Source: Candidatus Aegiribacteria sp. MLS_C (lineage in GTDB: Bacteria > Fermentibacterota > Fermentibacteria > Fermentibacterales > JCC-6). From it: a DNA stretch of 64,000 nucleotides. Under the pieces are notes generated by a model, which worked only from the letters and a program-made list of their open reading frames with translations, was not told where the DNA came from and did no database searches. Position numbers and translations under genes: made by a program. The stretch spans positions 56,240 to 120,239 of the forward strand of contig LQBI01000033.1 in the NCBI GenBank assembly GCA_002030045.1, read 5' to 3'. Shown here piece after piece: positions 37,131 through 56,903 of the stretch (position 1 is the stretch's first letter; every line of letters begins with the position of its first letter).

Positions 37131-37183
37131 GACGCATTCTGGTGCCGGCCGGAAACATGTTCCGGGCCCGGAAAATGGGACAT
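37131..37183 (+). repeat. Palindromic intergenic repeat, copy A
   Basis: Carries GGTGCCGGCCGGAAAC, then A-TGTTCCGGG, then CCCGGAAAATGGGACA. It matches the 57-bp copy at 56847-56903 (inverted) at nearly every position of the core. The 5' end (GACGCATTC) has diverged from the TGTCYCA end, so the outer inverted repeat is broken here. It lies in the 307-bp gap between divergent Gfo/Idh/MocA and clpB genes. Confidence 0.75.
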
Positions 37184-37220
37184 TCCGGAAAGCTGTTCCG
37201 GGCTGCGGGAAATGCCCCGG
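37183..37220 (+). repeat. Degenerate second copy of the palindromic repeat, in tandem with copy A
   Basis: TTCCGGAAAGCTGTTCCGGG, followed by C-TGCGGGAAATG, aligns with the repeat core (CCGGAAA, two variable bases, TGTTCCGGG, GG-AAAATG). It directly follows copy A in the same orientation. The rest of the gap to clpB (37221-37339) holds no recognisable feature apart from the clpB ribosome-binding site. Confidence 0.5.
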
Positions 37221-37339
37221 AGCGGGAAAAGGAATATCCAGCCATCGTTCGGAGGTCTTCGAGGACTCGCGTTCATGGATCGCGTGCATCATCGTCTGGC
37301 AGGTTGTATGCTTGCATATATACGATGGGAGGTAACCGA

Positions 37340-39925
37340 ATGAATTTCGACAAGCTCACGATAAAGTCAAGGGAGGCGATACAGGAGTCCGGCCGAATGG
37401 CCATCGAGGCCGGCAATCCGGAGATATCCACGGTACACCTGGCAGCCGTCCTCATCGACGACGCCGACAGCGTGGTCACAGGGGTCCTGGACAGTCTCGA
37501 GATTAACAGACAGGCACTCAGGGACGAGATATCAGGCCTTCTCGGTTCACTGCCCAGGACCAGCGGCGGGTCGGAACCGAGGATGACCGTCGGACTGGCA
37601 AGAGTGCTGGGCTCCGCCGAGAAGACTGCGGCGAAGATGAAGGACGAGTACGTGGCCAGGGAGCATCTGTTCCTGGGCCTGCTGGGTGCCGGCGACGCCG
37701 TTTCCGCGGTACTGGAGTCAAGGGGCGTCACCGAGAGGGATTTCCTGGAGGCGCTGGCCTCGGTAAGGGGTTCCGCAAGGATAAGCAGCGAATCGGCCGA
37801 GTCAACATACAAGGCTCTCGAGAAGTTTACCCGCGACCTGACGGCAATGGCCCGTCGGGAGAAGCTCGATCCCGTCATCGGAAGGGACGACGAGATACGG
37901 AGGGTCATGCAGGTCCTGGGCCGCAGGAGGAAGAACAACCCGGTACTCATCGGAGAACCCGGCGTAGGCAAGACCGCCATAGTGGAGGGACTGGCCCGAA
38001 GGATTGCCGAGGGTGACGTTCCCGAGACGCTCAGGGACAAGAGCGTCATGGCCCTGGACATGGGAGCCCTGGTGGCAGGGGCCAAGTTCAGGGGCGAGTT
38101 CGAGGAGCGTCTGAAGGCAGTGCTGAAGGAGATCGCCGATGCCGAGGGGAAGATAATCCTGTTCATAGACGAGATGCACACCCTCGTGGGAGCGGGAGCA
38201 GCCGAGGGAGCAGTGGACGCGGCCAACATGCTGAAACCCTCCCTTGCCAGGGGAGAACTGCACTGCATAGGTGCAACTACGCTGGACGAGTACCGCAAGC
38301 ACATCGAGAAGGACGCGGCCCTCGAGAGGCGTTTCCAGCCGGTGATTGTGACAGCTCCATCTGTTGAGGACACGGTCAGCATACTGAGGGGTCTTCGCGA
38401 CAGGTACGAGAGCCACCATGGGATCATCATACAGGATGCTGCACTCATGGCGGCGGCAACCCTCTCCAACAGGTACATCACCGACAGGTTCCTTCCCGAC
38501 AAGGCCATCGACCTGATAGACGAGGCCGCAAGCAGGCTGAGGATCGAGATCGACAGCATGCCTGAATCCATCGACGAGATCAGACGCAGGATGATGAGAC
38601 TGGAGATCGAGAGGGAGGGGCTCCGCAGGGAGGGCGAGGAGGACTGCCGGGAGGAACTGAGGCAGATTGAGAAGGAACTGGCGGAACTCTCGGAGGAGAG
38701 AGCATCCCTGGAAATGAAGTGGAAGAACGAGAAGGAGTTGATCGACAGGATCCGGGACAACGCCAGGAAGATCGAGGACCTCAGGGGGCAGTCCAAGATA
38801 GCCGAACGCCAGGGTGACCTGGAGAAGGTCGCCGAGATAAGGTACGGGAGGATAAGAGAACTGGAGGATGAGTCGGTACAGCTCAAGGAGAGGCTGGATG
38901 AGATCCAGAAGGATGGTTCGCTCCTTTCAGAGGAGATAACTCCCGAGGACATAGCCGAGGTGGTCTCCAGATGGACGGGAGTCCCGGTATCCAGGCTCCT
39001 TGAAAGTGAGAAGCAGCGTCTTCTGACCCTCGAGAAGGAACTCCACAGGAGGGTTGTAGGTCAGGACGAGGCTGTCACGGCTGTGGCCGAGGCCGTACGC
39101 CGTTCGAGGGCCAGCGTGCAGGACCCCAACCGGCCCCTGGGCAGTTTCGTCTTCATGGGTCCCACTGGAGTGGGGAAGACGGAGCTGGCAAGATCCCTCG
39201 CGGATTTCCTCTTTGACGACGAGAACGCACTGGTCAGGATAGACATGAGCGAATTCATGGAGAAACACTCGGTATCCAGGCTGATAGGAGCCCCTCCAGG
39301 ATATGTGGGTTACGACGAGGGAGGTTACCTGACCGAGGCCGTGAGACGAAGGCCATACTCCGTGGTCCTCTTCGACGAGATCGAGAAGGCACACATGCAG
39401 GTGTTCAATGTCTTCCTCCAGATACTGGACGAGGGAAGGCTCACCGACGGTCAGGGAAGGACCGTGGACTTCAGGAACACCGTTATCATCATGACCAGCA
39501 ACATAGGAAGCGACTGGATAGCGGAAGGCGCCGGGAAGCTGACCCAGGAGGAGCTTTCGGACAGGGCCAAGAGGGAGCTGGGGGTTCACTTCAGGCCCGA
39601 ATTCCTTAACAGGATAGACGACGTGATAGTCTTCAGGCCCCTGGGGAGGGAGGAACTCCGGGAGATAGTCGGCATACAGCTGAGGAGGCTCAACAGGGTC
39701 CTCAGGGAGCAGAACCTGGTGCTTGAACCCACCGAGGCGGCTCTTGACCTGCTGGCGCACCTGGGCTACGATCCGGCATTCGGGGCTCGTCCCCTCAAGA
39801 GGGTCATTCAGAAGCATGTTCAGAACGAACTGGCGGACTCCATCATCTCCGGTGACATTCATCCCGGGCAGAAGGTGGTGCTCGATGTCGTGGACGGTGA
39901 ACTGAGACTGGGACCCTCTGAGTAA
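37340..39925 (+). CDS. clpB: ATP-dependent disaggregase ClpB
   Basis: Hsp100 chaperone that, with DnaK, extracts proteins from aggregates. 861 residues from ATG 37340 (GGGAGG upstream; the frame is open 66 codons further but through the repeats). Clp-N repeats (1-140), AAA-1 with Walker [10 protein letters not shown] (about 208) and [13 protein letters not shown], a full-length coiled-coil middle domain (about 405-525, rich in E/K/R heptads) that distinguishes ClpB from ClpA, then AAA-2 with GPTGVGKTE (about 610), [11 protein letters not shown] and the C-terminal [11 protein letters not shown]. No CIRCE element or clear heat-shock promoter was seen upstream. Confidence 0.96.
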
Positions 39926-39934
39926 GGGAAGGTC

Positions 39935-40735
39935 TTGAAGGCCGCGATTCTGGTCCTGGCGGGTTACCTGGCAGCAGACATATTCCTGGAGGGAGGCGTC
40001 GCAGCCGCCGCGGTCATAGGACTGTCGGTATTGGAGTTCCTGTTCATCCTCGTGTTCAGGGGGGAGAGACACGCCTCCCTGCTCATCGAGGGCGTGGTCC
40101 TGGCGCTTGTCCTGACAGCCGGACACTTTCTGGCATCCGCGGGCTACCCGGGCTCGGAGTACGTCCTGCTGGAATTCGTACTGGGAGCCACCCTCCTGGT
40201 ATCTGCCCTCGCTGGAAGACCGTGGCTTGCGTCCCTGATGAGAAGGTTCCCCGGATTCTCCCCGGAAGAAGGCCGGCTGGGATCGGTCTCGAAGGACATG
40301 GGTACTATGTTCCTGCTGCACGGCGCGTTCACGGGAGCCTGGCTGGTCCTGGAGGGCGGGATCGATGTCCCTGTCGCATTGGGCTCTTTTGCCCTCCTCT
40401 ACCTCCTTGTCGTCATCCGTACCAGGTCGAGGCTGGGACACGAGACGTTAAGTGGAATGCCCCGCCTGATCGTGGAGGATGAGAGAAGAGCCGTGCTTGT
40501 TTCCGGCGGAAGGCGTCTGGGAACGCTGGAGGTTGAAATCGGGAGAGTTGCTATCGCCCGTCGGTTCCGGGTCGGGGAGGGTGTGGAGATGCACCGGTTC
40601 CTGGCAGACCTGGAGAAGGCGTTGCGAAGCAGCGGCTGCCTCAGCGTGAGGATAGCCGAATGGGATGGCGATACCCTTCCCCTGGAGATCTCCGGTTACA
40701 TTGAGTCCCCCGCGGGATGGACAAGACGCCTCTGA
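39935..40735 (+). CDS. Polytopic membrane protein of unknown function
   Basis: A 266-residue protein. About six hydrophobic segments occupy residues 1-165 (for example AAILVLAGYLAADIFLEGG, VVLALVLTAGHFLASAG, MFLLHGAFTGAWLVLEGG, SFALLYLLVVIRTRS), followed by a soluble alpha/beta tail of about 100 residues. The membrane part loosely recalls YciB/septation-protein-A-like proteins, but this is not secure. The start is TTG 39935 with AAGGGAAGG upstream, nine bases after clpB. Its stop abuts the stop of the convergent next gene with no base between. Confidence 0.6.
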   Translation: MKAAILVLAGYLAADIFLEGGVAAAAVIGLSVLEFLFILVFRGERHASLLIEGVVLALVLTAGHFLASAGYPGSEYVLLEFVLGATLLVSALAGRPWLASLMRRFPGFSPEEGRLGSVSKDMGTMFLLHGAFTGAWLVLEGGIDVPVALGSFALLYLLVVIRTRSRLGHETLSGMPRLIVEDERRAVLVSGGRRLGTLEVEIGRVAIARRFRVGEGVEMHRFLADLEKALRSSGCLSVRIAEWDGDTLPLEISGYIESPAGWTRRL

Positions 40736-41272
40736 TCAGCTGACACCACCCGAATACTCCTTCACGGCGAGGGAGGTCAGTATCGACAGCTCGTCGGCGA
40801 ACTGCCTCAGTTCCCTCGTAGATTTTCCGAAGGCCAGGGGTACGCGCCTGTCATCCGCCGTAAGCAGGTAGACCAGCGCATGGCCCTTCCCATCCCCGTA
40901 GGCGCTGACGTTCTCTTCGGTCATCTGGATGCCGATCTCCTTCAGGTCGGCGATGCCCATCGTACGCCGGGGACCTCTGGAGACCCTGTAGGAGAGGGTT
41001 CCCCCGGTCTGATCCACCACTACACCGGATCCATGACCCCTCCCGGCGAGAATGCCGGCCAGGACGGAACTGAACAGGAAAACAGAGCCTATCACGAGAA
41101 ATGGAAGGACTTCCTTGATGTCGATGCCTCTGCTGCCCGAGCTGAAGTAGATCGCCGCAAGCAGAACCAGGGGAAGGGCGGCAAGTGTGAATCTGGCTGC
41201 GCCCGACCTGCTCTGGAGTCCGGGAACGCCCCGTGAGACGTACCTGTCATCCTTCTGCTGAAAATAGTCCAT
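40736..41272 (-). CDS. Two-helix membrane protein with a PH-like C-terminal domain
   Basis: A 178-residue protein of unrecognised family. Two membrane helices (ARFTLAALPLVLLAAIYFSS and LPFLVIGSVFLFSSVLAGIL) are followed by strands (GVVVDQTGGTLSYRVSRG, TMGIADLKEIGIQM, HALVYLLTADDRRVPLA) and a helix (STRELRQFADELSILTSLAV), a pattern seen in bacterial PH-domain membrane proteins. GGGAGG precedes the ATG. A sigma-70-like promoter is at 41329-41357. Confidence 0.6.
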   Translation of the reverse strand: MDYFQQKDDRYVSRGVPGLQSRSGAARFTLAALPLVLLAAIYFSSGSRGIDIKEVLPFLVIGSVFLFSSVLAGILAGRGHGSGVVVDQTGGTLSYRVSRGPRRTMGIADLKEIGIQMTEENVSAYGDGKGHALVYLLTADDRRVPLAFGKSTRELRQFADELSILTSLAVKEYSGGVS

Positions 41273-41328
41273 ATGAACCTCCCGACATATCGGAACCGCA
41301 GATCACCCGGTACTGTTACAGCTTCGTG

Positions 41329-41357
41329 AATATAGACCCCGGGGCCGATAGTCCCAA
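41329..41357 (-). promoter_or_regulatory. Sigma-70-type promoter for the PH-like membrane protein
   Basis: Minus strand TTGGGA (41357-41352), 17-base spacer, TATATT (41334-41329), about 57 bp before the start codon at 41272. Confidence 0.45.
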
Positions 41358-41402
41358 AGGTGGACGGGTTGTATATTCAGCCGACCGAACCGGGGAGGAA
41401 GC

Positions 41403-42983
41403 ATGAGAAGGTCCATCGCCGTCATTCGGGCAGCCATCCTCCTGGCGGCCTTAGCGCAGCTGCCGGTCTCCTGCAGCGAACCCGCCGGTCCGCCGGATGC
41501 TCAGGGGCCGACGCAGTCGGTGCTCACGGTCACCCTGCTGCAGGAGGGTGACGCTGCGGGAAGAGTCTCGGTGCGGGCACCCCAATTCGATGGAGGCGGC
41601 AGGTACGCATACCGGGCCTCCGCCGTCTGGACCCAGTGTCCCGACGACGATTTCGCGTGGTACGCCATCTACAGGTCCGGGACCCCCGGAATAGCGTCCG
41701 ATCCCGGACTTGCAGATACCAGCATCGTCTTCTCCGGCGTTTCCAGTACCTCCTGGACCGACCAGGGCCTGCAGGAGGGTGAGACTTACTACTACGCAGT
41801 GCGCACCGTGGACCGGGATGACCTTGAAGCATGGAGCAACGAGGAGACTGTTCAGGTACCCCCTGCCGAACCGCCCTCACCGTCCGTACTTTCCGGTTCC
41901 TATACCGGTGACGGGACCTTCGGCCAGATCACCCTGGGCTGGACCCGGTGTCTCGAAGGCGATTTCTCAAGCTACCGCCTCTTCAGGTCCGATGACCCGG
42001 ACATCCAGTCAAATCCCTCTTCTGCGGTCCTCATAGCCGAGATCGAGGATGTCTCGGTGCTCGAGTACCAGGACAACGCGGTGGAAGGCCTGAAGACATA
42101 TTATTACGCGCTTCTGACGCTGGACGACACCGACCTGGGTTCATGGAGCAACGAGGTCGCGGTCTCAACCCCCGACCTCACTCCAAGGCTCACAGTGTTC
42201 TTCATAGATCCCTCCTACGGTAGCTATTCGGGGGACGCCATCCTACTGAGGACCCCGGGCGGGAACCACTACGTCATAGACGGCGGGGACAGGGGAAGCG
42301 GCTGGAGCTGCGGACTTGAAAGGGTAGTCCCCATACTGGACAGCCTGGGAGTCGACAGCCTTGACGGTATCGTAGGAACGCATCCCCACGCCGACCATAT
42401 CGGCGGACTGATAGGGATCCTTGAGACACTGCCCGTGGACGCAGTCTGGGACTCCGGCTTCCCATACACCACCTCCACCTATTACGAGTACCTCGACGCC
42501 ATATGGGCCAACGGTTCCGACTACATAACCCCCAGGAGGGGGGATGTGCTGGACTGGGACGATGACCTTGTCGTGGAGTGCCTGCATCCCGACGATCCGC
42601 TTGGGGATGATGCCAACAACGCTTCTGTGGTGCTTCGGGTGACCTTCCAGGATGTAACGTTCCTTTTCACAGGAGACCTGGAGAGCAGCGGCGGTGAGGA
42701 CGACATACTCTATGCCCTTGCCCAGGGGCAGATAGGCGATATCTCCGCGGACGTGCTCAAGGTTGGTCACCACGGCTCCCACACATCCACCTCGCAGGAC
42801 TGGCTGGTCGCGGTGGACCCATCCATGGCCGCGATCGAGGTTGGGTCGGGGAATCCCTACGGCCATCCTCATGCCGAGGTAATCGGAAGACTGCAGGATC
42901 ACGGTACCGACATATACAGGACCGACCTCGACGGGACCTTCGTCATATCCACAGACGGGAGCGACCTCCAGGTCTACCCCTGA
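41403..42983 (+). CDS. Lipoprotein with fibronectin type III repeats and a ComEC-like metallo-beta-lactamase domain
   Basis: A 526-residue exported protein. The signal peptide ends in L-P-V-S-C, a lipobox, so it is probably a lipoprotein. Two FN3-like modules follow (about 60-160 and 165-260; each ends ETYYYAVRT/KTYYYALLT ... SNEV). The C-terminal half (about 265-526) is an MBL-fold hydrolase: DAILLRTPGGNHYVIDGGD, the zinc motif THPHADHIGG, VTFLFTGDLE, and VLKVGHHGSHTSTSQDWL, as in the ComEC C-terminal domain and related extracellular phosphodiesterases. GGGGAGG precedes the ATG. The substrate is unknown; an extracellular nuclease or phosphodiesterase is plausible. Confidence 0.85.
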   Translation: MRRSIAVIRAAILLAALAQLPVSCSEPAGPPDAQGPTQSVLTVTLLQEGDAAGRVSVRAPQFDGGGRYAYRASAVWTQCPDDDFAWYAIYRSGTPGIASDPGLADTSIVFSGVSSTSWTDQGLQEGETYYYAVRTVDRDDLEAWSNEETVQVPPAEPPSPSVLSGSYTGDGTFGQITLGWTRCLEGDFSSYRLFRSDDPDIQSNPSSAVLIAEIEDVSVLEYQDNAVEGLKTYYYALLTLDDTDLGSWSNEVAVSTPDLTPRLTVFFIDPSYGSYSGDAILLRTPGGNHYVIDGGDRGSGWSCGLERVVPILDSLGVDSLDGIVGTHPHADHIGGLIGILETLPVDAVWDSGFPYTTSTYYEYLDAIWANGSDYITPRRGDVLDWDDDLVVECLHPDDPLGDDANNASVVLRVTFQDVTFLFTGDLESSGGEDDILYALAQGQIGDISADVLKVGHHGSHTSTSQDWLVAVDPSMAAIEVGSGNPYGHPHAEVIGRLQDHGTDIYRTDLDGTFVISTDGSDLQVYP

Positions 42984-43113
42984 ACCCGGCGGTTACGTTT
43001 TCCCGTGGAATTCGCGTTGACTTGGGCCCGGATATGGGTCATCTTTCCATGCACCGTATCTTAGAATGGGCATCTATCTCATCTACCCACAACACGAACC
43101 GGGAGGTCTGTAA

Positions 43114-43365
43114 GTGAGCGAACACAGGGAATACCCGTTTCCCGAGATCGATCCGGATATCTGCAAGGGATGCAGACTTTGCGTTGCCGCATGCCCGACG
43201 GATGTTCTGGTGATCTCTCCGAAACTGAACTCGAAGGGGTTCCATTATTCGGAGTACGTAGGCCAGGGGTGTATCGGATGCGGAAACTGCTTCTACGTCT
43301 GCCCCGAACCCAGCGCGGTGACGGTCTACCTGAAAGGCTACGTGCCTGAAGAGGAGGTGAGCTGA
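43114..43365 (+). CDS. korD: 2-oxoacid:ferredoxin oxidoreductase, delta (ferredoxin-like) subunit
   Basis: An 83-residue protein with two 4Fe-4S motifs: C-K-G-C-R-L-C-V-A-A-C-P (residues 18-29) and C-I-G-C-G-N-C-F-Y-V-C-P (51-62). It passes electrons from the TPP subunit to ferredoxin. The start is GTG 43114 with GGGAGG upstream. The ATG of the alpha subunit follows its stop directly. First gene of a three-gene unit, korD-korA-korBC. Confidence 0.92.
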   Translation: MSEHREYPFPEIDPDICKGCRLCVAACPTDVLVISPKLNSKGFHYSEYVGQGCIGCGNCFYVCPEPSAVTVYLKGYVPEEEVS

Positions 43366-44418
43366 ATGCCGAGGAAACTGATGAAGGGGAACCATGCCGC
43401 TGTCTATGGTGCCGCTCTTGCCGGATGCCAGGCCTACTACGGTTATCCCATAACCCCGGCCAGCGAGATAGCCGAATCGGCTGCCGCCATCTTCCCCAAG
43501 CTGGGCAGGACATTCCTGCAGGCTGAGAGCGAGGTGGCGGCGATCAACATGGTCTACGGTGCCGCCGGCTGCGGTCTGAGGGTCATGACCGGCAGTTCGG
43601 GTCCCGGCATCAGCCTGAAGCAGGAGGGGCTGTCATACTGTGCAGGCTCCGCGCTGCCCTGCGTGGTTGTCGACATCATGAGGGGCGGTCCCGGACTCGG
43701 GAACATAGGCCCGGAGCAGGGAGACTACAACCAGGTGGTCAAGGGAGGCGGACACGGCAACTTCAAGAACATCGTCCTGGCTCCCAATTCGGCCCAGGAG
43801 ATGTGCGACCTGACGATGCTGGCCTTCGAGCTGGCCGACAAGTACCGCAACCCGGTATTCGTTCTCACCGACGGCGTGATAGGTCAGATGATGGAAGCCG
43901 TGGAACTCCCCGAACCGGTCTCGGAACTGCCGGACAAGAGCGACTGGGCGGTCGGGGGAACGGCGGATTCCCGTCACCTGATCAATTCCATCTATCTCGA
44001 TCATGACGACCTGGAATGGTGGAACATGGAGCTTGCGAAGAAGTACGAGACCGTGGAGAAGAACGAGGTCAGGTTCGAGGAGTACAAGATGGAAGATGCC
44101 GAGATCGTCGCTATCGGCTATGGAAGCGCCAGCAGGGTGCTCCGCTCAGCGGTGGACCTTGCCAGGAGGAAGGGTGTCAGGCTTGGCATGTTCAGGCCCA
44201 TCACGCTCTTCCCCTTCCCGAAGGACCAGCTGGCGGCGCTTCCCGACAGGGACCTCAAGGGCATCATCACTGTGGAGATGTCCAACGGTCAGCTGGTGAA
44301 CGACGTGAACCTCGCCCTGAGAGGCAGGATGATTTCCGACCTTCACATGAGAATGGGCGGCAACGTTCCCTCCGCCCTGGAGATCGTCGAGAAGGTCTCC
44401 GAACTGTACGGGGTGTGA
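43366..44418 (+). CDS. korA: 2-oxoacid:ferredoxin oxidoreductase, alpha subunit (VorB/KorA-like)
   Basis: A 350-residue subunit carrying the pyrimidine-binding and transketolase C-terminal-like domains. [20 protein letters not shown] and [12 protein letters not shown] are the family opening; [18 protein letters not shown] and [18 protein letters not shown] are conserved. The enzyme converts a 2-oxoacid plus CoA to acyl-CoA, CO2 and reduced ferredoxin. It could act on 2-oxoglutarate or on branched-chain 2-oxoacids; sequence alone does not decide. It is separated from korBC by two bases. Confidence 0.92.
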
Positions 44419-44420
44419 TC

Positions 44421-45860
44421 ATGGCACAGAAGACTGTACTCAGAAAGCCCAAAGGTTTCATAGACGTATACAAGTACAAGCCCGGCGAGGAGAAGGACAG
44501 GACCCACTACTGTCCCGGCTGCGGCCACGGCATCATCCACAAGCTGATAGCCGAGGCCCTGGAGGATTTCGACATAGTCGAGAAGTCCATCGTCATAAGC
44601 CCTGTGGGCTGCAGCGTCTTCGCATACTATTACTTCGACACCGGGAACCTCCAGGTGGCACACGGAAGGGCTCCCGCCGTGGGGACCGCCGTTTCGAGGG
44701 CCAATCCCGATTCCGTCGTGATAAGTTACCAGGGCGACGGAGACCTTGCCGCAATAGGCGGGAACAACATACTCCAGGCGGCCAACAGGGGAGAGAACAT
44801 GGTGGTGGTCTTCGTGAACAACGCCATCTACGGGATGACCGGCGGCCAGATGGCTCCCACGACCCTCACCGGACAGAAGACTACGACCACGCCGTACGGA
44901 AGGAACCCGGTTACCGACGGTTATCCGCTGCAGATGTGCGAGCTGATAAGCCAGCTGACCGCACCGGTCTACGTTACGCGGACATCTCTCCATGACATGC
45001 CCGGCATAAGGAAGGCCAGGGCCGCCATCCGCAAGGGCATACAGAACGCCATGGACAGGAAGGGGTTCTCCTTCGTGGAGGTCCTGAGCATGTGTCCCAG
45101 CGGCTGGAAGATGGAACCGGTACAGGCTCAGGATTGGATAAGGGACAGGATGCTCGAGAGGTTCCCCACCGGTACCTTCAGGGACAGCTCAGACGAGGCT
45201 GTGAGAATAGAGAGGCCCGTCCCTGTGATGGACCCGGAAAAGGTCAAGGAGATACTTGGCTACGAGAGCCTCAAGACCTCGAACCTGAAAAAGAATCCCA
45301 ACGCCCTCTTCAACAAGGTTGCCCTCAGGGTAGCCGGCTTCGGCGGACAGGGGATCATGTCCACCGGAATAGCCCTGGCGAACGTAGGGATGGAATACGG
45401 TTACAAGGTCAGCTGGCTGCCTTCCTACGGACCCGAGATGCGGGGCGGGACAGCCAACTGCTCCGTCAAGGTCCAGGAGGAGACCATCGGAGCAGCCGAG
45501 TGTACCGAACCCAACATGGTCATTGCCATGAACCAGCCCAGCCTCGAGAAGTTCGAGAGGATCCTGGTGCCTGACGGAGTGCTGATGTACAACAGCACTC
45601 TCATAGAAGTAGAGCCGACGAGGAAGGACCTCCGCGTCTATCCGATCCCGGTCACCGGCATGGCCGACGCACTCGGTGACACCAGGGTCCAGAGCATGGT
45701 CAACGTCGGCGCTTTTGCTGCTATTACCGGCATGTTCGACCCCGGCGAGATAAGCGGGCTCATGTCGTCGCTCTTCGGTGGCAAGTCAGAGAAGGTGATA
45801 CAGCTCAACGAGGAAGCTGTCAGGAAGGGTTACGATTACGTCAGGGAGAACTTTTCCTGA
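44421..45860 (+). CDS. korBC: 2-oxoacid:ferredoxin oxidoreductase, fused beta and gamma subunits
   Basis: A 479-residue fusion. Residues 1-285 are the TPP-binding beta subunit: HYCPGCGHGIIHKLIAEAL, SPVGCSVFAYYYFD, the TPP motif GDGDLAAIGGNN (G-D-G-D ... N), and AIYGMTGGQMAPTT. Residues about 295-479 are the gamma subunit: VALRVAGFGGQGIMSTGIAL, WLPSYGPEMRGGTANCSV, and MVNVGAFAAITGMF. Separate genes are usual, but this join occurs in some anaerobes. The start ATG 44421 follows korA closely; the longer upstream frame lies inside korA. A strong hairpin follows. Confidence 0.93.
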   Translation: MAQKTVLRKPKGFIDVYKYKPGEEKDRTHYCPGCGHGIIHKLIAEALEDFDIVEKSIVISPVGCSVFAYYYFDTGNLQVAHGRAPAVGTAVSRANPDSVVISYQGDGDLAAIGGNNILQAANRGENMVVVFVNNAIYGMTGGQMAPTTLTGQKTTTTPYGRNPVTDGYPLQMCELISQLTAPVYVTRTSLHDMPGIRKARAAIRKGIQNAMDRKGFSFVEVLSMCPSGWKMEPVQAQDWIRDRMLERFPTGTFRDSSDEAVRIERPVPVMDPEKVKEILGYESLKTSNLKKNPNALFNKVALRVAGFGGQGIMSTGIALANVGMEYGYKVSWLPSYGPEMRGGTANCSVKVQEETIGAAECTEPNMVIAMNQPSLEKFERILVPDGVLMYNSTLIEVEPTRKDLRVYPIPVTGMADALGDTRVQSMVNVGAFAAITGMFDPGEISGLMSSLFGGKSEKVIQLNEEAVRKGYDYVRENFS

Positions 45861-45877
45861 CGATGCTCTGAACGGAT

Positions 45878-45905: not shown

Positions 45906-45969
45906 CCTTCACCCGGTATCGATTCGGTCAGTTCCTCGCCGGTCATGAGCTGTACGTACCGGAGAACCA

Positions 45970-48252: not shown

Positions 48253-48275
48253 TCGGTCCCCTTTCGGCTGGGCGG

Positions 48276-48304
48276 AAGATACAGTCATCGTTCCGGACGT
48301 GCAA
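48276..48304 (-). promoter_or_regulatory. Candidate sigma-70 promoter of ndk
   Basis: Minus strand TTGCAC (48304-48299), 17-base spacer, TATCTT (48281-48276), 24 bp before the ndk ATG. Each box matches four of six consensus positions. Confidence 0.4.
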
Positions 48305-48306
48305 CA

Positions 48307-48335
48307 TTGATTTTGCTCATTGGTGCTCTTATCAT
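48307..48335 (+). promoter_or_regulatory. Sigma-70-type promoter of the outer-membrane protein gene
   Basis: TTGATT (48307-48312), 17-base spacer, TATCAT (48330-48335). Transcription would start near 48342, ahead of AAAGGA and the ATG at 48370, which supports that start over the upstream one at 48307. Confidence 0.55.
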
Positions 48336-48369
48336 TGCTGGTACACGTTTTCCACTGAAAGGACCCCTC

Positions 48370-49494: not shown

Positions 49495-49543
49495 CCCCGG
49501 CCGCCTTTGGAGCCCGGGTGCGGCAGCCACCGGAACAGGAATT

Positions 49544-52500
49544 ATGATGAGGAACGGAACCGCAGGGGTCCCCGCTTCCCGTGGATGGCTAAGGATCACA
49601 TGGAGTCCCGAATCCGGGGTCTCCATGGTCTCCGGTGACAGCGAGGGTCTGCTTGGCGTAAGCGCGAGAAGACTGGTCAGGTCAGCCGAACCGCTCACGC
49701 TATTGCCCTCGGAAATCTCGGGAATCCTGGCGTCGGGTCTGCCGGATGTGCCTGTATACCTGGCCACCTCAATCATGTCCGGCAGCGTATGCACCATCGG
49801 CAGCCACGCAGAGGTGGTCCTGTTCGGTATACCCGGCCTTCAGGGCAGGAGCGACGTCATGATAGACGAGCTGGGGGCCGGGATCTTGGGCACCGACAGG
49901 AACGGGGTGATCAATCTCTGGAACAAGAGCATGTCAAGCATGTTCAGGGTTCCTCAGCAGCACGTCAAGGGAAAGGCCATACAGGACGTACTGGTTTCCC
50001 CGGTACTGTACTCCTGGGAGAATGTCATAAAGATGGTTCTGGAGGGGAAGCAGATGAAAATTGTCTGCCGCCCCGACGCCCAGAGAAGGATAGAGTGCAA
50101 CTTCACGCTGGGCGGAAACGGTGTGATAGGAACCTGCTTCGATACAACGGAGAGCTTCCAGGCCGAGAACAGGTTGCGGACCAGCAGGAAGATGAATCAG
50201 GCTTACTTCCATTCGGTGAGCACAGGACTGGTGCTGTTCGACAAGGACTACAGGATCCTGGTCGCCAACCGGTCTTTCGGAAGGGTGTTCGGGCTTGTGG
50301 AGAACCTCCTCGGCATGCACCTTCAAGAGATACTGCCCAGCGAGAGCTACGAGATAATGGAGGATCTGGCCCGACCCTTCTTTTCAGGCAACACATTCGA
50401 GAAGGAGGAGGGCAGGACGGCCTATTTCACCCTTCCCGACAGGAGTACGAGGGTCATTCTGCAGGACGTCCATCCCATCGTCGAGGATTCGGGTGAGGTC
50501 TTCTACGCCGTGGGAATATTCGAGGACATCTCCGAGATCACGATCCTCAGAGAGAACTACGTAAAGCACGTAGAGACGGTCAGAGGACTCAACGGCTTCT
50601 TCGAGATGCTCCAGTCAGGCCGTGCGCTGAACAGCGGCGAGATATGCGAGAAACTCAGGGAATGCCTGGCAGCTGATGCAGTTGCACTCTACCTCACCGA
50701 TCCCGTGTCCGACAACAGGCTGTCAGGACGTTCAAAGGGATGGCCGGAGGATTCCCCCGAGGTCTTCCAGGAACTGAGATTCGCACCGGTGATGATGGAT
50801 AAGGGTTCCGGCTGCAGGCTCTCGGGTGAGGATCAGGGCGTGCTGGCGGGGCTGTTCAGCAGCTGTCTGGTTTTTCCGCTGGAATCAGAGAGGAAGAGCT
50901 TCGGTTACCTCGTTGTCTCGTATAGAGGCAGCGAACCGGCCACCGACGTCTTCCCCATGGCGGAGATAGCTTCGGGAATGATCCGTTCCTATCTCGGGAT
51001 CGTTGAGTATGAGACCGAGACGGAGCATCTGGATCTTCTCTGCATGAGGCAGAATGAACTCATCGCCAGGCTGGTCGATTCACTGGACATCCCGGTGGCC
51101 ATATTCCGAATGGACTGGTCCGTGGTCATATGGAACACTCCCATGGAGGAAATCACCGGTGTCTCACCGGACCTCGCGACAGGCCGCCCGGAGCTGGCGG
51201 CCAACATTCTCTTCAACGGCCTCGGAGGGCTCAGCTCGGCCCAGAAGCTCCTGAGGAGCGATTCATCTGATTTCCCTGAATCGTGGGTAGTTGAGAACCA
51301 GGACGGCGAAAGCACAAGGTGCACATGGAGGATTCTCAGGACCGAATCGGTGGAAGGAAGGAACCTGGAACCGGTTATCATCCTGGCGGGAGTGAAGTCC
51401 GGTGACGTGCACAGCATAAACGCAGCGCGAAGGGCGGCGGAGACCTATTCAGCCCTGAGCAGGGGGACATCCTCCCTCCTTGCGGCATCGGACAGGAATC
51501 GCGTGGAGGAGGCTGCGGCCACGGCACTCCTGGATATTTCGGGCGCATCCCGGGTCACAGTGAGAATCAGAGGGATCAAGCCGGTAACGAGGACGTCCTA
51601 CGATCTCACACCCGAAGAATCGACGGATTACTGGACTCTTCCCATTGAGACCGAGACAGAGGTCATCGGCGAGTGCCAGTTCCATGGAGGCAGGGAGTAC
51701 GCCATGATGAAGGATTTCCTGAAGAATGTGGCCAGGACCTGCGTGGAATTGGAGAAGTCGGCAGTCGGCAGGAAATTTGCTTTCCTGGCGGAAAGGGCGG
51801 CGGGCAGGTTCCTCATAACCAACAGTAAAGGCAGGATACTCCTGTCTACCTGGACGGAAGGTCAGGAAGGATCGGTTTCCAACCGGACAATCTTCGACAT
51901 GTTCTCCGGCACCGAGTGGCAGATACTGGATGCTGCCATTACCGGGGTCCAGACCAAGGGCAGGCTTGACCTTTCACTGACATCGACGGAAGGGCAGGAT
52001 GTTCAGATGGCGGCTGTGACCCTGGATGGTCACGAGGGGGAGATTCTCATCATATGGTGGCCCGTTTCTGATCCTTCCTACAAGAGGGCCCTGGAGAACA
52101 TGGAAATGGCCAGGAGATCGGGTAACGCTCTTCGCGACATGCTCGACCATCTGCTGGAATCCATCGACCTGAGCTTCTCCAGGGTCAAGGAAGTCCTGAA
52201 TCCGGACCATCCCGTGGCCTCGCTGCTGAATACGTCCGGTTACGCCTTCGAGGGTATGAGGAAGGGCTACTACTATGTGAGGCTCATGCAGACGGCGATG
52301 AACACGGTCCCCGGAAGAGTCGACGTGGAGGAACTGCTGAACGGAGTAATGTCCTGTCTGGTCGATAGAGGGCTCGACTCTCCCGACGTCACGATCACGG
52401 GCAGTCTCTCCGACATATCAGGCCAGCCCGAACTGATAAGGGAGATCGTCACCAGGCTTTGTATGCTGGTCTGCGACAGGTCGGCACCCGTCATTGCAGT

Positions 52501-52777
52501 ATCCGTGGTCAGACGTTGCAGCCTGCATACGCCGCAGGGCCCGCGGGAAGGTCCTGAGCAGTACACGCAGCTCGAACTCAGGACAGTGGACGGAGGTCGG
52601 TACAGGGGTATTCCGCTGGAAGTCGAGGAGCATCAGGGCCAGTGGAACTTCGAGTCCGGCATCGATCCGGCGTCCGAGATCAGGCTGCTCTCTCTGGTTC
52701 TCAGCCTTTCGGGAGGTTATCTCCGGAGGTCCGAGAAGAGCGGCAACCTTCTCATTCTCCTTCCCTGCTCCGACTGA
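49544..52777 (+). CDS. Multi-PAS/GAF sensor protein with a degenerate histidine-kinase-like C-terminus
   Basis: A 1077-residue cytoplasmic protein without clear membrane helices. PAS domains lie at about 105-210 (LGAGILGTDRNGVINLWN), 220-340 (STGLVLFDKDYRILVANRSF) and 510-625 (PVAIFRMDWSVVIWNTPME). GAF-like regions are at about 350-490 and 640-750. The final 220 residues follow the DHp/ATPase layout (GNALRDMLDHLLESIDLSF; GQPELIREIVTRLCMLV; SLVLSLSGGYLRRSEKSGN). However, there is no H-E/D phosphoacceptor box, and the N, G1 and G2 boxes of the ATPase are missing. Output is therefore unknown. AGGAATT precedes the ATG. Confidence 0.75.
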   Translation: MMRNGTAGVPASRGWLRITWSPESGVSMVSGDSEGLLGVSARRLVRSAEPLTLLPSEISGILASGLPDVPVYLATSIMSGSVCTIGSHAEVVLFGIPGLQGRSDVMIDELGAGILGTDRNGVINLWNKSMSSMFRVPQQHVKGKAIQDVLVSPVLYSWENVIKMVLEGKQMKIVCRPDAQRRIECNFTLGGNGVIGTCFDTTESFQAENRLRTSRKMNQAYFHSVSTGLVLFDKDYRILVANRSFGRVFGLVENLLGMHLQEILPSESYEIMEDLARPFFSGNTFEKEEGRTAYFTLPDRSTRVILQDVHPIVEDSGEVFYAVGIFEDISEITILRENYVKHVETVRGLNGFFEMLQSGRALNSGEICEKLRECLAADAVALYLTDPVSDNRLSGRSKGWPEDSPEVFQELRFAPVMMDKGSGCRLSGEDQGVLAGLFSSCLVFPLESERKSFGYLVVSYRGSEPATDVFPMAEIASGMIRSYLGIVEYETETEHLDLLCMRQNELIARLVDSLDIPVAIFRMDWSVVIWNTPMEEITGVSPDLATGRPELAANILFNGLGGLSSAQKLLRSDSSDFPESWVVENQDGESTRCTWRILRTESVEGRNLEPVIILAGVKSGDVHSINAARRAAETYSALSRGTSSLLAASDRNRVEEAAATALLDISGASRVTVRIRGIKPVTRTSYDLTPEESTDYWTLPIETETEVIGECQFHGGREYAMMKDFLKNVARTCVELEKSAVGRKFAFLAERAAGRFLITNSKGRILLSTWTEGQEGSVSNRTIFDMFSGTEWQILDAAITGVQTKGRLDLSLTSTEGQDVQMAAVTLDGHEGEILIIWWPVSDPSYKRALENMEMARRSGNALRDMLDHLLESIDLSFSRVKEVLNPDHPVASLLNTSGYAFEGMRKGYYYVRLMQTAMNTVPGRVDVEELLNGVMSCLVDRGLDSPDVTITGSLSDISGQPELIREIVTRLCMLVCDRSAPVIAVSVVRRCSLHTPQGPREGPEQYTQLELRTVDGGRYRGIPLEVEEHQGQWNFESGIDPASEIRLLSLVLSLSGGYLRRSEKSGNLLILLPCSD

Positions 52778-52807
52778 CCTCCGGGTTACCTGAATGGTGT
52801 TCGGAGC

Positions 52808-52836
52808 TTTACCCGGGGAGCCTTTCTGGTCATACT
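52808..52836 (+). promoter_or_regulatory. Candidate promoter of leuS
   Basis: TTTACC (52808-52813), 17-base spacer, CATACT (52831-52836), 43 bp before the leuS start. The -35 overlaps the distal arm of a 6-bp hairpin (CCGGGT at 52781, ACCCGG at 52811) that could end the upstream gene. No T-box leader was recognised. Confidence 0.3.
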
Positions 52837-52878
52837 ACCGACTCATGCTGAAGGATACCCATCTTTCGGAGGGCTGAT

Positions 52879-55338
52879 TTGGACCGCTACGATTTCGAAA
52901 AGCTGCAGAGAAAATGGAAACCCGTATGGGCTTCCATGGGTCTCTACAGGACCGGCACGGACCCTGACAGGGAGCCTTTCTACTGTCTCGACTACTTCCC
53001 TTATCCATCAGGCGCCGGCCTATCCGTGGGGCATTGCAAGAACTACATCCCGACGGACGTCATCAGCCGGAAGAAGAGAATGGACGGCTACAACGTGCTT
53101 CATCCCATGGGTTGGGACGCCTTCGGACAGCCTGCGGAGGAGTACGCCATAAAGACCGGCACACATCCTTCAGAAGTCACACGGATCAACACGGACACAT
53201 ACAGAAGGCAGATGAAACTGATCGAGACCAGCTACGACTGGGAGAGGGAGATCAATTCCAGCGATCCCGACTACTACAGGTGGACCCAGTACTTCTTCAT
53301 CCTTCTCTTCGACAGGGGGCTGGCCTACCAGAGGGAGAACGACCAGATGTGGTGTCCCAGCTGCAGAATAGTCCTTTCCAACGAGGAGGCTGCAGGCGGG
53401 ATCTGCTGGAGATGCAATGGCCAGGTCACCAGGAAGAAACTGACTCAGTGGTTCTTCAGAATAACGGACTACGCAGACAGGCTTCTGGAAGACCTGGAGG
53501 AACTGGACTGGCCGGAGGGAATAAAGGCCATGCAGCGTAACTGGATCGGGAAATCCACAGGGGCCGAGGTGGATTTCGCGGTGAGGAATCCCGAGACCGG
53601 TGAGGAATACAGGCTCCCCGTCTACACGACCCGCCTGGATACCATCTACGGCGCCACCTTCTGCGTGCTTGCACCGGAACATCCTGATCTGGAGAGGATG
53701 GTCACCTCGAAGCAGCGTGACAGGGTCCTGGAGTACGCCTCCGCCGCGAGATCGAGGAGCGATCTTGAGCGTGCAGCGGCCGCCGAGCGGGAGAAGACAG
53801 GTGTATTCACCGGGTGCTCCGCCGTGAACCCCTTCAACGGGGAGGAGATTCCCCTGTACGTGGCGGACTACGTTCTTGCAGGGTACGGGACCTCGGCCAT
53901 AATGGCCGTTCCCGCCCATGACGAGAGGGACCATGCATTCGCCTCGAAGTACGGCATTCCGATAGTGGAGGTGATAGCTCCCGGAGGCGTTCCTCAGGGG
54001 GTCTCGGAGTCGGCTACGGTGGCCGATGGTCAGCTCCTGAACAGCGGCAGGTTCGACGGGATGGATTCGGCGGAGGCCAGGATCGGAATGGCCCGTTATG
54101 CGGAGGAGATGGGCTTCGGAAGGCCTGACACAAGGTATCGGATTCGGGACTGGCTGGTCTCCAGGCAGCGGTACTGGGGTGCGCCGATTCCCGTAATCCA
54201 CTGTGAGAAATGCGGCGCCGTGCCCGACAGGAACCTTCCTGTACTCCTTCCGGAGATGGAGGACTTCGAGCCTGATGACTCGGGCAGGTCACCACTTGCA
54301 AGGGTGGAGGAATGGGTCAGCACGAGTTGTCCGGTCTGCGGAGGTCCCGCGAGGAGGGACACTGATACGATGGCGGGTTTTGTCTGCTCATCCTGGTACT
54401 TCCTGAGGTTCGCTTCTCCCCGGGAGGATGACCGTCCCTTCGATCCCGAGGCGGTAAGGTACTGGCTGCCGGTGGACCTCTACGTCGGGGGTGCGGAGCA
54501 CGCGGTGATGCACCTCATCTATGCCAGGTTCTGGACCAAGGTTATGTACGATGCGGGCATGCTGGATTTCACCGAACCCTTCGCCGTGCTGAAGAACCAG
54601 GGGATGATACTGGGTGCCGACGGACAGAAGATGTCCAAGTCAAAGGGCAACGTGGTCACTCCCGACGAGATGGTTGAGAAGTACGGGGTGGACGCCCTGA
54701 GGCTGTACATACTCTTCATGGGTCCCTTCGAGGCGGAGCTGGAATGGAGCGAGGAAGGCATCGCGGGTACCTACAGGTTCCTGAAGAGGGTCTGGACGGT
54801 GTTCACCGAAACCGCAGGGGCGGTCACGGGAGCTGAGGATCCCGACCTCATGGCGGAACTCCGTTACCAGACTGCAAGGACCCTCAAGAAGGTGACCGAG
54901 GATATCGACGGTTTCGCCTTCAATACTGCCGTTGCGGCACTGATGGAGTTCGTCAACTTCCTTTCCTCAAGCAGAGAAAGGGCGGGGAAGGCCGGGAGCC
55001 TGTGGAGGGAATCACTTAGAAGACTGCTTGTCATAATGGCGCCCATGACCCCCTTCATGTCCGAGGAACTCTGGCACAGGATGGGATTCGAAGGTGACAC
55101 GGTCTTCCACCAGCCATGGCCTTACTGGGAAGAGGAAGACCTTGTCCTCGACACCGTCGAGGTGGTGGTCCAGGTTAGGGGCAGGATCCGCGGAAGGATG
55201 ACCGTTTCCCCGGAAGCCTCCGAGGACGAGGTGCGCAGGAGGGCCCTGCAGCTGGACAGGATAGTCGAGATCCTGGACGGCGCCGAACCCCGCAGGGTGA
55301 TCGTGGTCCCGGGAAAACTGGTCAACATAATCCCCTGA
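52879..55338 (+). CDS. leuS: Leucyl-tRNA synthetase
   Basis: Class I synthetase charging tRNA-Leu. 819 residues: HIGH-type motif YPSGAGLSVGHCKNY (about 42-56), zinc/editing insertion with the threonine-rich VYTTRLDTIYGATF and the editing motif GYGTSAIMAVPAHDERD, catalytic DWLVSRQRYWGAPIP, CP core, and KMSKS as GQKMSKSKGN (about 584). The C-terminal anticodon and linker domains are complete. The start is TTG 52879 with GGAGGG upstream. It leads a cluster with a small membrane protein, a flavin-type protein, OsmC and a cupin. Confidence 0.97.
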   Translation: MDRYDFEKLQRKWKPVWASMGLYRTGTDPDREPFYCLDYFPYPSGAGLSVGHCKNYIPTDVISRKKRMDGYNVLHPMGWDAFGQPAEEYAIKTGTHPSEVTRINTDTYRRQMKLIETSYDWEREINSSDPDYYRWTQYFFILLFDRGLAYQRENDQMWCPSCRIVLSNEEAAGGICWRCNGQVTRKKLTQWFFRITDYADRLLEDLEELDWPEGIKAMQRNWIGKSTGAEVDFAVRNPETGEEYRLPVYTTRLDTIYGATFCVLAPEHPDLERMVTSKQRDRVLEYASAARSRSDLERAAAAEREKTGVFTGCSAVNPFNGEEIPLYVADYVLAGYGTSAIMAVPAHDERDHAFASKYGIPIVEVIAPGGVPQGVSESATVADGQLLNSGRFDGMDSAEARIGMARYAEEMGFGRPDTRYRIRDWLVSRQRYWGAPIPVIHCEKCGAVPDRNLPVLLPEMEDFEPDDSGRSPLARVEEWVSTSCPVCGGPARRDTDTMAGFVCSSWYFLRFASPREDDRPFDPEAVRYWLPVDLYVGGAEHAVMHLIYARFWTKVMYDAGMLDFTEPFAVLKNQGMILGADGQKMSKSKGNVVTPDEMVEKYGVDALRLYILFMGPFEAELEWSEEGIAGTYRFLKRVWTVFTETAGAVTGAEDPDLMAELRYQTARTLKKVTEDIDGFAFNTAVAALMEFVNFLSSSRERAGKAGSLWRESLRRLLVIMAPMTPFMSEELWHRMGFEGDTVFHQPWPYWEEEDLVLDTVEVVVQVRGRIRGRMTVSPEASEDEVRRRALQLDRIVEILDGAEPRRVIVVPGKLVNIIP

Positions 55339-55352
55339 GAGGATGCCGGAGC

Positions 55353-55538
55353 ATGCTGGATGCTCTCTGGAGGCTTGTTGGAAGGCTTGTTTCGCTGGCG
55401 GGCCGTTTACTCTCCGGCACCATAGGTCTCGTACTCCTGGTCCTCGGAGCGGTACTCTGCCTGACCGTCATCGGAGCCGCCATCGGCATCCCACTGGTTA
55501 TTCTGGGTGTGCTGCTCCTGGTCAGGAGCCTCTTCTGA
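55353..55538 (+). CDS. Small two-helix membrane protein
   Basis: A 61-residue hydrophobic protein. An amphipathic start (MLDALWRLVGRLVSLAGRLL) is followed by two membrane segments (GTIGLVLLVLGAVLCLTVIG and IGIPLVILGVLLLVRSL). It lies 14 bp after leuS with GAGAGGATG upstream, and 19 bp before the next gene. Function unknown; tight spacing and codon pattern support a real gene. Confidence 0.6.
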   Translation: MLDALWRLVGRLVSLAGRLLSGTIGLVLLVLGAVLCLTVIGAAIGIPLVILGVLLLVRSLF

Positions 55539-55557
55539 CGTTGAAGGGGTTCACGAA

Positions 55558-56037
55558 GTGAGAAGAACGGACCTTGCCGTGACCGATCCCCGAATGATGG
55601 AGGCGGTCCTCCGCCGGGGCCTGGTATGCAGGCTGGGACTCCTGAGGGAAGGGCTTCCCTATATCGTTCCCCTGAGCTACGGATACGAGGATGGATGTCT
55701 GTACTTCCACTGCGCCGGGGAGGGTCTGAAGCTTGAATGCATAAGGGAATGCCGCAGGGTATGCTTCCAGGTCGACTGCGGGGTGCGGGTCAGGGAGGCG
55801 GCGGAGGCCTGCGGATGGACCATGGACTATTCCAGCGTAATCGGTTACGGAACGGTCAGCGAGATTGAGGACTGCGAAGAGAAAATGAGGGCGCTCCGAA
55901 TACTGATGGGTCACTACTCGGGAAGGGAGGACTGGGAAATACCCGCCTCGCTGCTTGATACGACCACCGTACTGAAGCTTCCCATCGACAGTATGACGGG
56001 CAAGAGTTCCACAGGCGGACCTGAAGAAGACGAATGA
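55558..56037 (+). CDS. Pyridoxamine 5'-phosphate oxidase-like (NimA-type) flavin-binding protein
   Basis: A 159-residue split-barrel protein. VCRLGLLREGLPYIVPLSYGY, LYFHCAGEGLKLECIRECRRVCFQV and YSSVIGYGTVSEIEDCEEKMRALRIL follow the NimA/5-nitroimidazole-resistance-like pattern; the two-residue step after I-V-P and the FHCA-x-G segment resemble the flavin site. The start GTG 55558 has AAGGGG nine bases upstream; an earlier in-frame ATG lies inside the preceding gene. Its stop overlaps the osmC start. Confidence 0.82.
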   Translation: MRRTDLAVTDPRMMEAVLRRGLVCRLGLLREGLPYIVPLSYGYEDGCLYFHCAGEGLKLECIRECRRVCFQVDCGVRVREAAEACGWTMDYSSVIGYGTVSEIEDCEEKMRALRILMGHYSGREDWEIPASLLDTTTVLKLPIDSMTGKSSTGGPEEDE

Positions 56038-56435
56038 TGGAGATGGATATTACCTTCGGCGGCGGGAAACGCGTGGATGCCATCTTCGACGGCTTTACAG
56101 TAAGGACTGACCAGTCACGGTCAGGCGGAGGGGAGGGTTCTGCTCCGGAACCCTTCGATCTCTTCTTCGCTTCCCTGGGAACCTGCGCCGGCATCTACGT
56201 CCTTTCCTTCTGCCAGCACCACGGCCTTCCCTGGGAGGGCATAAGGCTGGTCCAGAGGACCGAGAGGGAACCCGGCAGCGGAATGTACGAGAAGCTGGAG
56301 ATCGACATAATCGTTCCGAAGAGTTTTCCGGAGAAGTACCACAAGGCGCTGGTCCGGTCGGCGGAGCAGTGTACCGTGAAGAAGCACGTCGCAGTCGGGC
56401 TGCCGGAGTTCCGCGTGGCCGTGAGGACCTGCTGA
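56034..56435 (+). CDS. OsmC/Ohr-family protein
   Basis: A 133-residue OsmC-fold protein: GEGSAPEPFDLFFASLGTCAGIYVLSF has the family's P-x-E/D-L-x-x-x-S-L-x-x-C with the first reactive cysteine (in T-C-A-G). A second cysteine in EQCTVKKHVA lies at the partner position. Such proteins reduce organic peroxides through paired thiols. The Ohr-specific Arg is not clear, so the OsmC/YhfA branch is likely. It overlaps the flavin-type gene by four bases. Confidence 0.88.
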   Translation: MMEMDITFGGGKRVDAIFDGFTVRTDQSRSGGGEGSAPEPFDLFFASLGTCAGIYVLSFCQHHGLPWEGIRLVQRTEREPGSGMYEKLEIDIIVPKSFPEKYHKALVRSAEQCTVKKHVAVGLPEFRVAVRTC

Positions 56436-56449
56436 TCGGAGGAGAAGAA

Positions 56450-56788
56450 ATGCGGGTGATCAGGTACGACGATATTCCCGAGACGAAGGTGGAGAGCGAG
56501 GGAGCGGTGGGTGTGGGCATAAGGGTGCTCATCGGGGAGGAGAACGGAGCGCCGAACTTCATTATGAGGAGATTCTCCGTTCAGCCCGGAGGACGGACCC
56601 CGTTCCACAGCCATTCATGGGAGCACGAGGTGTTCGTGCTTGAGGGCAGGGGAGAGGCGGTCCGGGGGACGGACTCCTATCCCATCGAGAGCGGTTCAGC
56701 GGTACTGGTGGTCCCGAACGAGGAGCACAGCTTCAGGAACACCGGGGACGAACCCCTCGTGTTCCTCTGCATCATCCCCATCGTCTGA
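56450..56788 (+). CDS. Cupin-domain protein
   Basis: A 112-residue single-domain cupin. Motif 1 is FHSHSWEHEVFVLEGRGE (G-x-H-x-H-x-x-x-E-x-x-x-V-L-x-G type) and motif 2 is VVPNEEHSFRNTGDEPL, giving a complete 3-His/1-Glu metal site. The substrate cannot be told. The start 56450 has GGAGGAGAAG upstream. A repeat (copy B) begins two bases after its stop. Confidence 0.9.
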   Translation: MRVIRYDDIPETKVESEGAVGVGIRVLIGEENGAPNFIMRRFSVQPGGRTPFHSHSWEHEVFVLEGRGEAVRGTDSYPIESGSAVLVVPNEEHSFRNTGDEPLVFLCIIPIV

Positions 56789-56790
56789 AA

Positions 56791-56826
56791 TGTCCCATTC
56801 TGGTGCCGGGCCCGGAAAATGGGACA
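56791..56826 (+). repeat. Short form of the palindromic intergenic repeat, copy B
   Basis: Begins TGTCCCATT (56791-56799) and ends AATGGGACA (56818-56826), a perfect 9-bp inverted pair. The centre is CTGGTGCCGGGCCCGGAA. Compared with copies A and C it lacks an internal block of about 20 bp (GGCCGGAAAC-R-TGTTCCGG). It starts two bases after the cupin stop. Confidence 0.8.
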
Positions 56827-56846
56827 TTTCCAGTATTGGGTTGTTC

Positions 56847-56903
56847 GATGTCTCATTTTCCGGACCCGGAACACGTTTCCGGCCGGCACCAATGTGAGAC
56901 ATC
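56847..56903 (-). repeat. Full-length palindromic intergenic repeat, copy C (inverted)
   Basis: 57 bp with perfect 9-bp ends GATGTCTCA (56847-56855) and TGAGACATC (56895-56903). Read on the minus strand the interior is GGTGCCGGCCGGAAAC, G-TGTTCCGGG, TCCGGAAAA, nearly identical to copy A. It is inverted relative to copy B, 20 bp away, so the RNA across both can form a long hairpin between two convergent genes. Its end reaches the stop codon of the hydrolase gene (TGA at 56904-56902). Confidence 0.85.

Follow-up and report, generated by a model that had tools for sequence, protein, structure and literature searches.

A family of short palindromic repeats was followed from a 64,000-nucleotide stretch of contig LQBI01000033.1 of Candidatus Aegiribacteria sp. 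MLS_C (hereafter the window, G000:C33:56240-120239, where G000 is the genome of 2.98 Mb in 35 contigs) through the whole genome and through draft genomes of its relatives. In all likelihood, the repeats are non-autonomous hairpin ends of a single-copy, vertically inherited tyrosine transposase of the HUH-Y1 type; they resemble repetitive extragenic palindromes (REPs) and REP doublets (REPINs), may be called the dispersed terminal inverted repeats (TIRs) of a TIRtron, and occupy sites that endure while one repeat family gives way to another. The observations behind this conclusion are the family itself, its bracket around the transposase gene, the co-divergence of repeat and transposase, conserved positions, sequence turnover at these positions, nesting of families and adjacency to stop codons. 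An element of the REP, REPIN or miniature inverted-repeat transposable element (MITE) type is supported because the repeats bracket a transposase, because the same bracket is found in a sister species (G006) and because transposase clades match repeat types.

Search with a covariance model detected at least 19 copies of the repeat at 12 loci in G000 and about 14 copies in G006, and revealed no match at E<=0.05 in any of the 17 other genomes of the genus, which served as a natural negative control. These counts are lower bounds because they were taken from the best 150 scored candidates per genome with rough E-values; copies in the relatives are undercounted because the genomes are drafts and many repeat matches lie at contig ends. 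Given at least 19 copies in G000 and none in the 17 control genomes, the repeat is not a product of chance. The unit (consensus AATGTCYCATTCTGGTGCCGGGCCYGGAAAATGRGACATT) is a palindrome with 11-bp ends, AATGTCYCATT..CTGGTGCCGGGCCYGG..AATGRGACATT, and exists in two forms, 57 bp with an inner hairpin and 40 bp without it, the hairpin being formed by about 17 additional bases, CCGGAAACATGTTCCGG. One base of the GG preceding AAAATG is absent from 14/14 copies in G006 and from 0/19 in G000. Many copies are single, and close inverted pairs are present at several loci. Such pairs are frequently oriented with heads AATGTCYCATTCTGGTGCC outside and tails inside, which is the REPIN geometry and also that of the transposase bracket. 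No conserved motif was found in the flanks beyond the 11-bp ends, and a fixed target motif was therefore rejected; the TGA that is frequent 5' of the head goes together with the stop codons there.

The candidate transposase gene is located outside the window, at G000:C13:47372-48241, and codes for a 290-aa product. A short (+) and a long (-) repeat copy, about 1 kb from each other, bracket its open reading frame. The protein matches Pfam Y1_Tnp with 45.3 bits (cut-off 23) and, at its C-terminus (residues 250-282), the helix-turn-helix (HTH) profile HTH_23 with 26.9 bits (cut-off 24.6). The sole match in the NCBIfam library is NF047646 REP_Tyr_transpos. The translation shows an HYH motif (in SNHYHLMV) and a tyrosine in KYIVLNP; no relative of solved structure was found by sequence at E<=0.01. 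Five Y1_Tnp genes are present in G000, and flank comparison revealed the TGTCCC-type bracket only around the C13:47372-48241 gene. The other four (L022, L023, L025 and L026, on C31, C35, C13 and C33, respectively) are flanked by inverted sequences that are their own or unclear, for example ACGGGGTCGTACGTTACTTCGGGTCACTT, 29 nt and perfect, at L026; L022 lies too near a contig end for the script, and its flanks were read by eye.

The closest relative of this transposase in the genus is the G006 orthologue, which is 56% identical and bracketed by inverted copies of the same repeat type. Less similar relatives (40-49%) carry other inverted ends. The transposase tree splits exactly by flanking-repeat type, with TGTCCC in G000 and G006 (support 100/98), GGKGCCGGRCCTAACAT in 8 genomes (93/95) and TTAGCATT in 3 genomes (100/100); tree and repeat type agree in every labelled genome, while branches are long and the deep order is unsure. 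To the left of the transposase is a gene similar to serine hydroxymethyltransferase (SHMT; 81-89% identical to its orthologues) and to the right a 455-aa gene without known function. Both are orthologous in most genomes of the genus, and the transposase has therefore been inherited in place. A single copy at one vertically inherited locus is the behaviour expected of a REP-associated tyrosine transposase (RAYT, or TnpAREP). As a separate observation, inverted ends of other Y1_Tnp genes, in genomes that share the order or only the domain with G000 (L049, L051, L052, L054), often hold a short direct repeat of 7-10 bp, for example TTAAACTTTAAACTT and CTTCAGATGCTTCAGATGC.

In the window, the repeats and the genes next to them are as follows (clpB and the Abhydrolase_2 gene were used to locate the orthologous sites in relatives).

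37128..37184, + strand: long copy, 57 bp (window sequence, genome BLAST, covariance model)
37185..37232, boundary approximate, + strand: decayed extra tail unit, TTCCGGGCTGCGG...CCCGGAGCGGGAAAAG (by-eye comparison with tandem units at C31:50336 and C24:125570)
56789..56828, + strand: short copy, 40 bp, AATGTCCCATTCTGGTGCCGGGCCCGGAAAATGGGACATT (window sequence, covariance model)
56847..56903, - strand: long inverted copy, 57 bp (window sequence, genome BLAST, covariance model)
56789..56903, no strand: REPIN-like inverted pair, heads outward (window sequence, gene calls)
37325..39925, + strand: clpB, to the right of the copy at 37131
56450..56788, + strand: Cupin_2 gene, left neighbour of the REPIN-like pair, context only, outside the element (gene call, profile search)
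56902..57990, - strand: Abhydrolase_2 gene with a TPR end domain, convergent right neighbour of the pair

The original prediction, made from the window alone, had placed copies at 37131, 56791 and 56847, and all three were recovered with the refined boundaries given above. Its end pairs, GATGTCTCA/TGAGACATC and TGTCCCATT/AATGGGACA, are present as described, and genome-wide the inverted ends extend to 11 bp, AATGTCCCATT/AATGGGACATT. What had been taken for a degenerate tandem copy at 37183-37220 is most readily interpreted as an additional, decayed unit of the type that forms intact tandem arrays, with units of 54-55 bp, at C31:50336 and C24:125570. A further degenerate copy proposed at 401-431 was recovered neither by genome BLAST nor by the covariance model (E<=10) and is dropped.

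The 37128..37184 copy has a degenerate head, TGACGCATT, on the left and the tail AATGGGACATT on the right, and is located between divergent genes, one for a GFO/IDH/MocA oxidoreductase (36040-37032, -) and clpB. The short copy begins immediately 3' of the TGA of the cupin-domain gene (end 56788). On the other side, the convergent alpha/beta-hydrolase-like gene ends in a TGA (56904-56902) to which the head end of the 56847..56903 copy contributes. The pair 56789-56903 occupies exactly the entire gap between two convergent stop codons. The two long copies in the window are complementary at 84% across 58 nt. In the tandem arrays at G000:C24:125570 (L092) and C31:50336 (L091), the 54-55 bp units share roughly ATTCCGGGCTKCGGAARCATGTTCCGGGCCCGG; the spacers are locus-specific and a short copy adjoins. 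One copy in G006 (L082, G006:C39:35561) is a perfect or near-perfect 39-bp palindrome, CCATTCCGGTGCCAGGCACCGGAATGG, unlike the others.

Folded as single-stranded DNA, the copies are more stable than their shuffles: z is about -3.5, -4.2 and -3.9 in three copies that are intact, and -2.5 in the 37131 copy. Compensatory evolution of the stem had been proposed from a change seen on both arms of the short copy. The change itself stands, as T-A replaces C-G in three copies. Among the 19 G000 copies, this varying stem pair is C-G in 10, T-A in 3 and mismatched in 6, and another stem pair is broken in 9/19. No measure of covariation in the stem exceeded column shuffles (tested on 16 copies, then on 19), and compensatory evolution was rejected. 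The palindrome is genuine; selection on pairing is not demonstrated. The outcome named in advance as damaging to the repeat family combined a mere handful of copies genome-wide with a lack of covariation, and half of it came true: many more copies exist, but covariation is absent.

Neighbours of the G000 loci were compared with neighbours of repeat loci in five relatives. Ten of the 12 loci are common to other species. At 9/12 the same family is present at the orthologous gap in G006, and at 6/12, both window loci among them, the sister family GGKGCCGGRCCTAACATNTAAACATT is found in G001, G005, G017 or G018. The inverted repeats that other species carry at such swapped sites look unrelated to those of G000 and belong to sister RAYT families. 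In 12/17 genomes examined, the region 5' of clpB contains either an inverted pair or an unmistakable half of such a pair, with at least 4 sequence types; in G009 and G012 the site holds collapsed GGGGCC..CCCC remnants. At the 56791 site the type is TGTCCC in G000, GGGGTCGGATCTTACATTTTAACATC in G006, GGGGCCGGACCTAACATC in G013 and GGGGTCGGGYCTCGAATCTTAGCGTT in G016; in G015 it is GGGGTCGTATCTTGAATTTTGGCATT beside a GGCCCC remnant, and in G001 a GGGGTCGTATCTTGAATTTTGGCATT type lies within the loop of a GGGGCC type. At arm tips of sister families (L211, L195, L206 and L212, in G006, G010, G007 and G015, respectively), outward ladders were observed in which the flank and GGGGTC or GGCCCC are repeated 2-3 times, as if by repeated nicking or slippage.

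In several genomes, for example at G005:C77 and G015:C67, copies of the GGGGTCGTATCTTGAATTTTGGCATT family flank a second RAYT paralogue on both sides. This family is nested in a locus of a sister family, or lies no more than 60 bp from one, at 9/19 of its loci in G001, 2/9 in G011 and 4/20 in G015, an event with a chance of at most about 0.001 per locus. At L169 and L175 (G001:C15 and C153), L170, L172 and L177, a REPIN of one RAYT family is inserted in an arm of a REPIN from a different family or directly next to it; two clean loop insertions share an identical loop sequence and an identical 3-nt offset. Nesting in itself is not new, because REP dimers within unrelated palindromes were reported earlier (PMC3733652).

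It is an evenly balanced proposition, in our estimate, that the genus keeps a fixed set of chromosomal "hairpin stations", which lie for the most part at the 3' ends of genes and are inherited across species. Their occupants would be exchanged either by within-genome homogenisation to the current RAYT or by overwriting, when another family inserts in the resident loop and the outer arms then decay; sequence families would be transient tenants. We infer more generally, from these sequence comparisons, that sites probably outlive the families occupying them, through nested insertion followed by outer-arm decay or through homogenisation within a genome. We found no description of conserved dispersed sites with swapped families as a mode of REP turnover in the open-licence literature, which is weak evidence of novelty.

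The conserved positions could instead be very strong insertion hot spots, with one RAYT family after another arriving independently at the same palindromic or stop-codon sites and none residing there for long. This is a serious contender, to which we give somewhat less than an even chance. It is favoured by the insertions of unrelated families within or next to each other and by the finding that orthologous G000 and G006 copies are no closer to each other than random copy pairs (permutation P 0.83), together with the 1-nt difference fixed between the two species. In-place homogenisation within each genome would, however, yield the same pattern. Moreover, remnants of older families are found beside newer ones (GGCCCC in G015, collapsed GGGGCC..CCCC in G009 and G012), and such sites were therefore occupied before.

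The position of the repeats relative to genes was also analyzed. In G000 and G006 together, a stop codon lies no more than 18 nt from the head in 18/33 copies, with about 7% expected (p about 5e-13); when the tail side is included, 22/33 copies are near a stop, compared to 13% expected. The null consists of random intergenic points of one 64 kb window with genes called by a home-made caller, and the copies are not fully independent. The clpB copy is situated between divergent genes, away from 3' ends. REPs of E. coli are reported to stall ribosomes when a stop codon is within 15 nt (PMC12306157). The repeats might alternatively be host regulatory hairpins selected at gene ends for 3'-end processing, termination or translation attenuation, with the link to the transposase secondary. 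Along with heads at stop codons and the E. coli precedent, the retention of positions across species despite differing sequences speaks for such a role. Yet the presence of the repeats tracks one transposase lineage exactly and copies bracket the transposase gene, compensatory pairing is absent, and the clpB copy is not at a 3' end; a search for an intrinsic terminator at 56600-57100 found none, and the window pair lacks a T-run of the terminator type. We consider this explanation unlikely on its own, though a regulatory role could hold additionally, as an exapted function. It is very improbable that the repeats are a MITE derived from a conventional insertion sequence of the DDE type, with terminal inverted repeats of 9-11 bp: internally shortened copies with inverted ends would suit it, as would L090 (G000:C35:89155-90142), where inverted copies at 89155 and 90103, 950 bp apart, enclose an apparent broken insertion sequence transposase, but such a remnant is present at just 1/12 loci, in two species these ends enclose a Y1 (HUH) transposase, and no conserved motif lies beyond the 11-bp ends (target duplications as such were not examined).

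Several points weigh against assigning the repeats to the HUH-Y1 transposase as its mobile ends. The match to REP_Tyr_transpos, at 71.1 bits, falls 9 bits short of the curated cut-off of 80, and HTH_23 is reported for the G000 protein only and for none of four relatives. One of the four other Y1_Tnp genes may act on the repeats in trans. Compared with classical REPs, copies are few (at least 19). Mobility is not directly observed, there being no polymorphic site within a species among the genomes compared, and the clpB site is clean in G003, probably by deletion rather than as an ancestral empty site.

If the repeats are indeed ends of this transposase, their movement can be pictured from knowledge of TnpAREP and IS200/IS605 proteins. 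When DNA is single-stranded, for example as the lagging-strand template, an element or element pair would fold into a hairpin. The transposase would recognise it, cut at its foot by means of the catalytic tyrosine and join a copy elsewhere; element pairs may also collapse or be lost. Copies would settle mainly at gene 3' ends, often at stop codons, either because insertion is harmless there or because the hairpin is useful. Sites would then be long inherited, and the occupying family would change along with the transposase or yield to nested insertion of another RAYT family. The cutting, the copying and any benefit to the host are thus inferred.

Persistence of REPs and REPINs over millions of years, despite mostly harmful insertions being expected, becomes testable in this genus because it has dispersed hairpins at orthologous sites, their sequence changes with the transposase and rival families are nested. 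Selection, targeting to existing hairpins and in-place conversion are the testable alternatives for retention of sites.

The original interpretation of the repeat as a REP, bacterial interspersed mosaic element or tiny MITE was right in kind, given the REPIN-like inverted pairs and the HUH tyrosine transposase that they bracket in two species, but the GTAG/GTGG tag of classical REPs is absent and a TIR-flanked RAYT-like class (TIRYT/TIRtron) fits better. As in the REPIN/RAYT systems (REPtrons) of Pseudomonas and E. coli (Bertels and Rainey 2011, PMC3116915; Corneloup 2021, PMC8266576), there are inverted pairs of short palindromes, tandem clusters and a single-copy, vertically inherited transposase, and the repeats are intergenic, often just 3' of stop codons. 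In contrast to those systems, copies number in tens rather than hundreds and no GTAG/GTGG is present 5' of the hairpin. A classical GTAG REP was rejected on the latter ground, the tag being absent at the hairpin foot in the consensus and in the listed copies. The CGTC-tagged type of REP, in which an unpaired CGTC/TGTC accompanies a stem of 8-9 bp and a CCA tail, was rejected as well, since TGTC pairs with GACA and the CCA tail is absent. Syntenic orthologous RAYTs with differing REP classes in related strains, comparable to the SHMT-like locus, are described in the consulted parts of the RAYT orthogroup study (Nunvar 2013, PMC3686654); those parts treat RAYT flanks and yielded no case of dispersed sites that are conserved while their families are swapped.

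The closest likeness is to TIRYTs and TIRtrons (Di Nocera 2013, PMC3733652), in which a RAYT-like HUH-Y1 protein with an extra C-terminal HTH is flanked by inverted repeats instead of GTAG REPs, and these repeats may disperse as dimers or clusters. The TIR family of S. maltophilia ORF 1152 (PMC3733652), from another organism and likened by description only, similarly consists of dispersed, self-complementary TIRs near each other. Sister lineages of the genus have TIRs starting with GGGG (GGGGCC/GGGGTC), near the published GGGGWSAS. The TIR of G000 and G006 differs in beginning with AATGTCCC, without GGGG or GGGGWSAS, and in that each unit is itself palindromic. GGGGWSAS is not strictly defining, because it is common to only some TIRs (PMC3733652). 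By its C-terminal HTH and flanking inverted repeats, the G000 transposase appears to fit the TIRYT class. This class is probably the TnpAREP subclass 2.1 of Quentin 2018 (PMC6006769), near whose genes that survey found no REP-like sequences. The genus would add dispersed REPIN-like families to the TIR-flanked branch of RAYTs, and it differs from the TIRYTs described before in its numerous dispersed pairs, their placement at gene ends, the conservation of their sites and their nesting.

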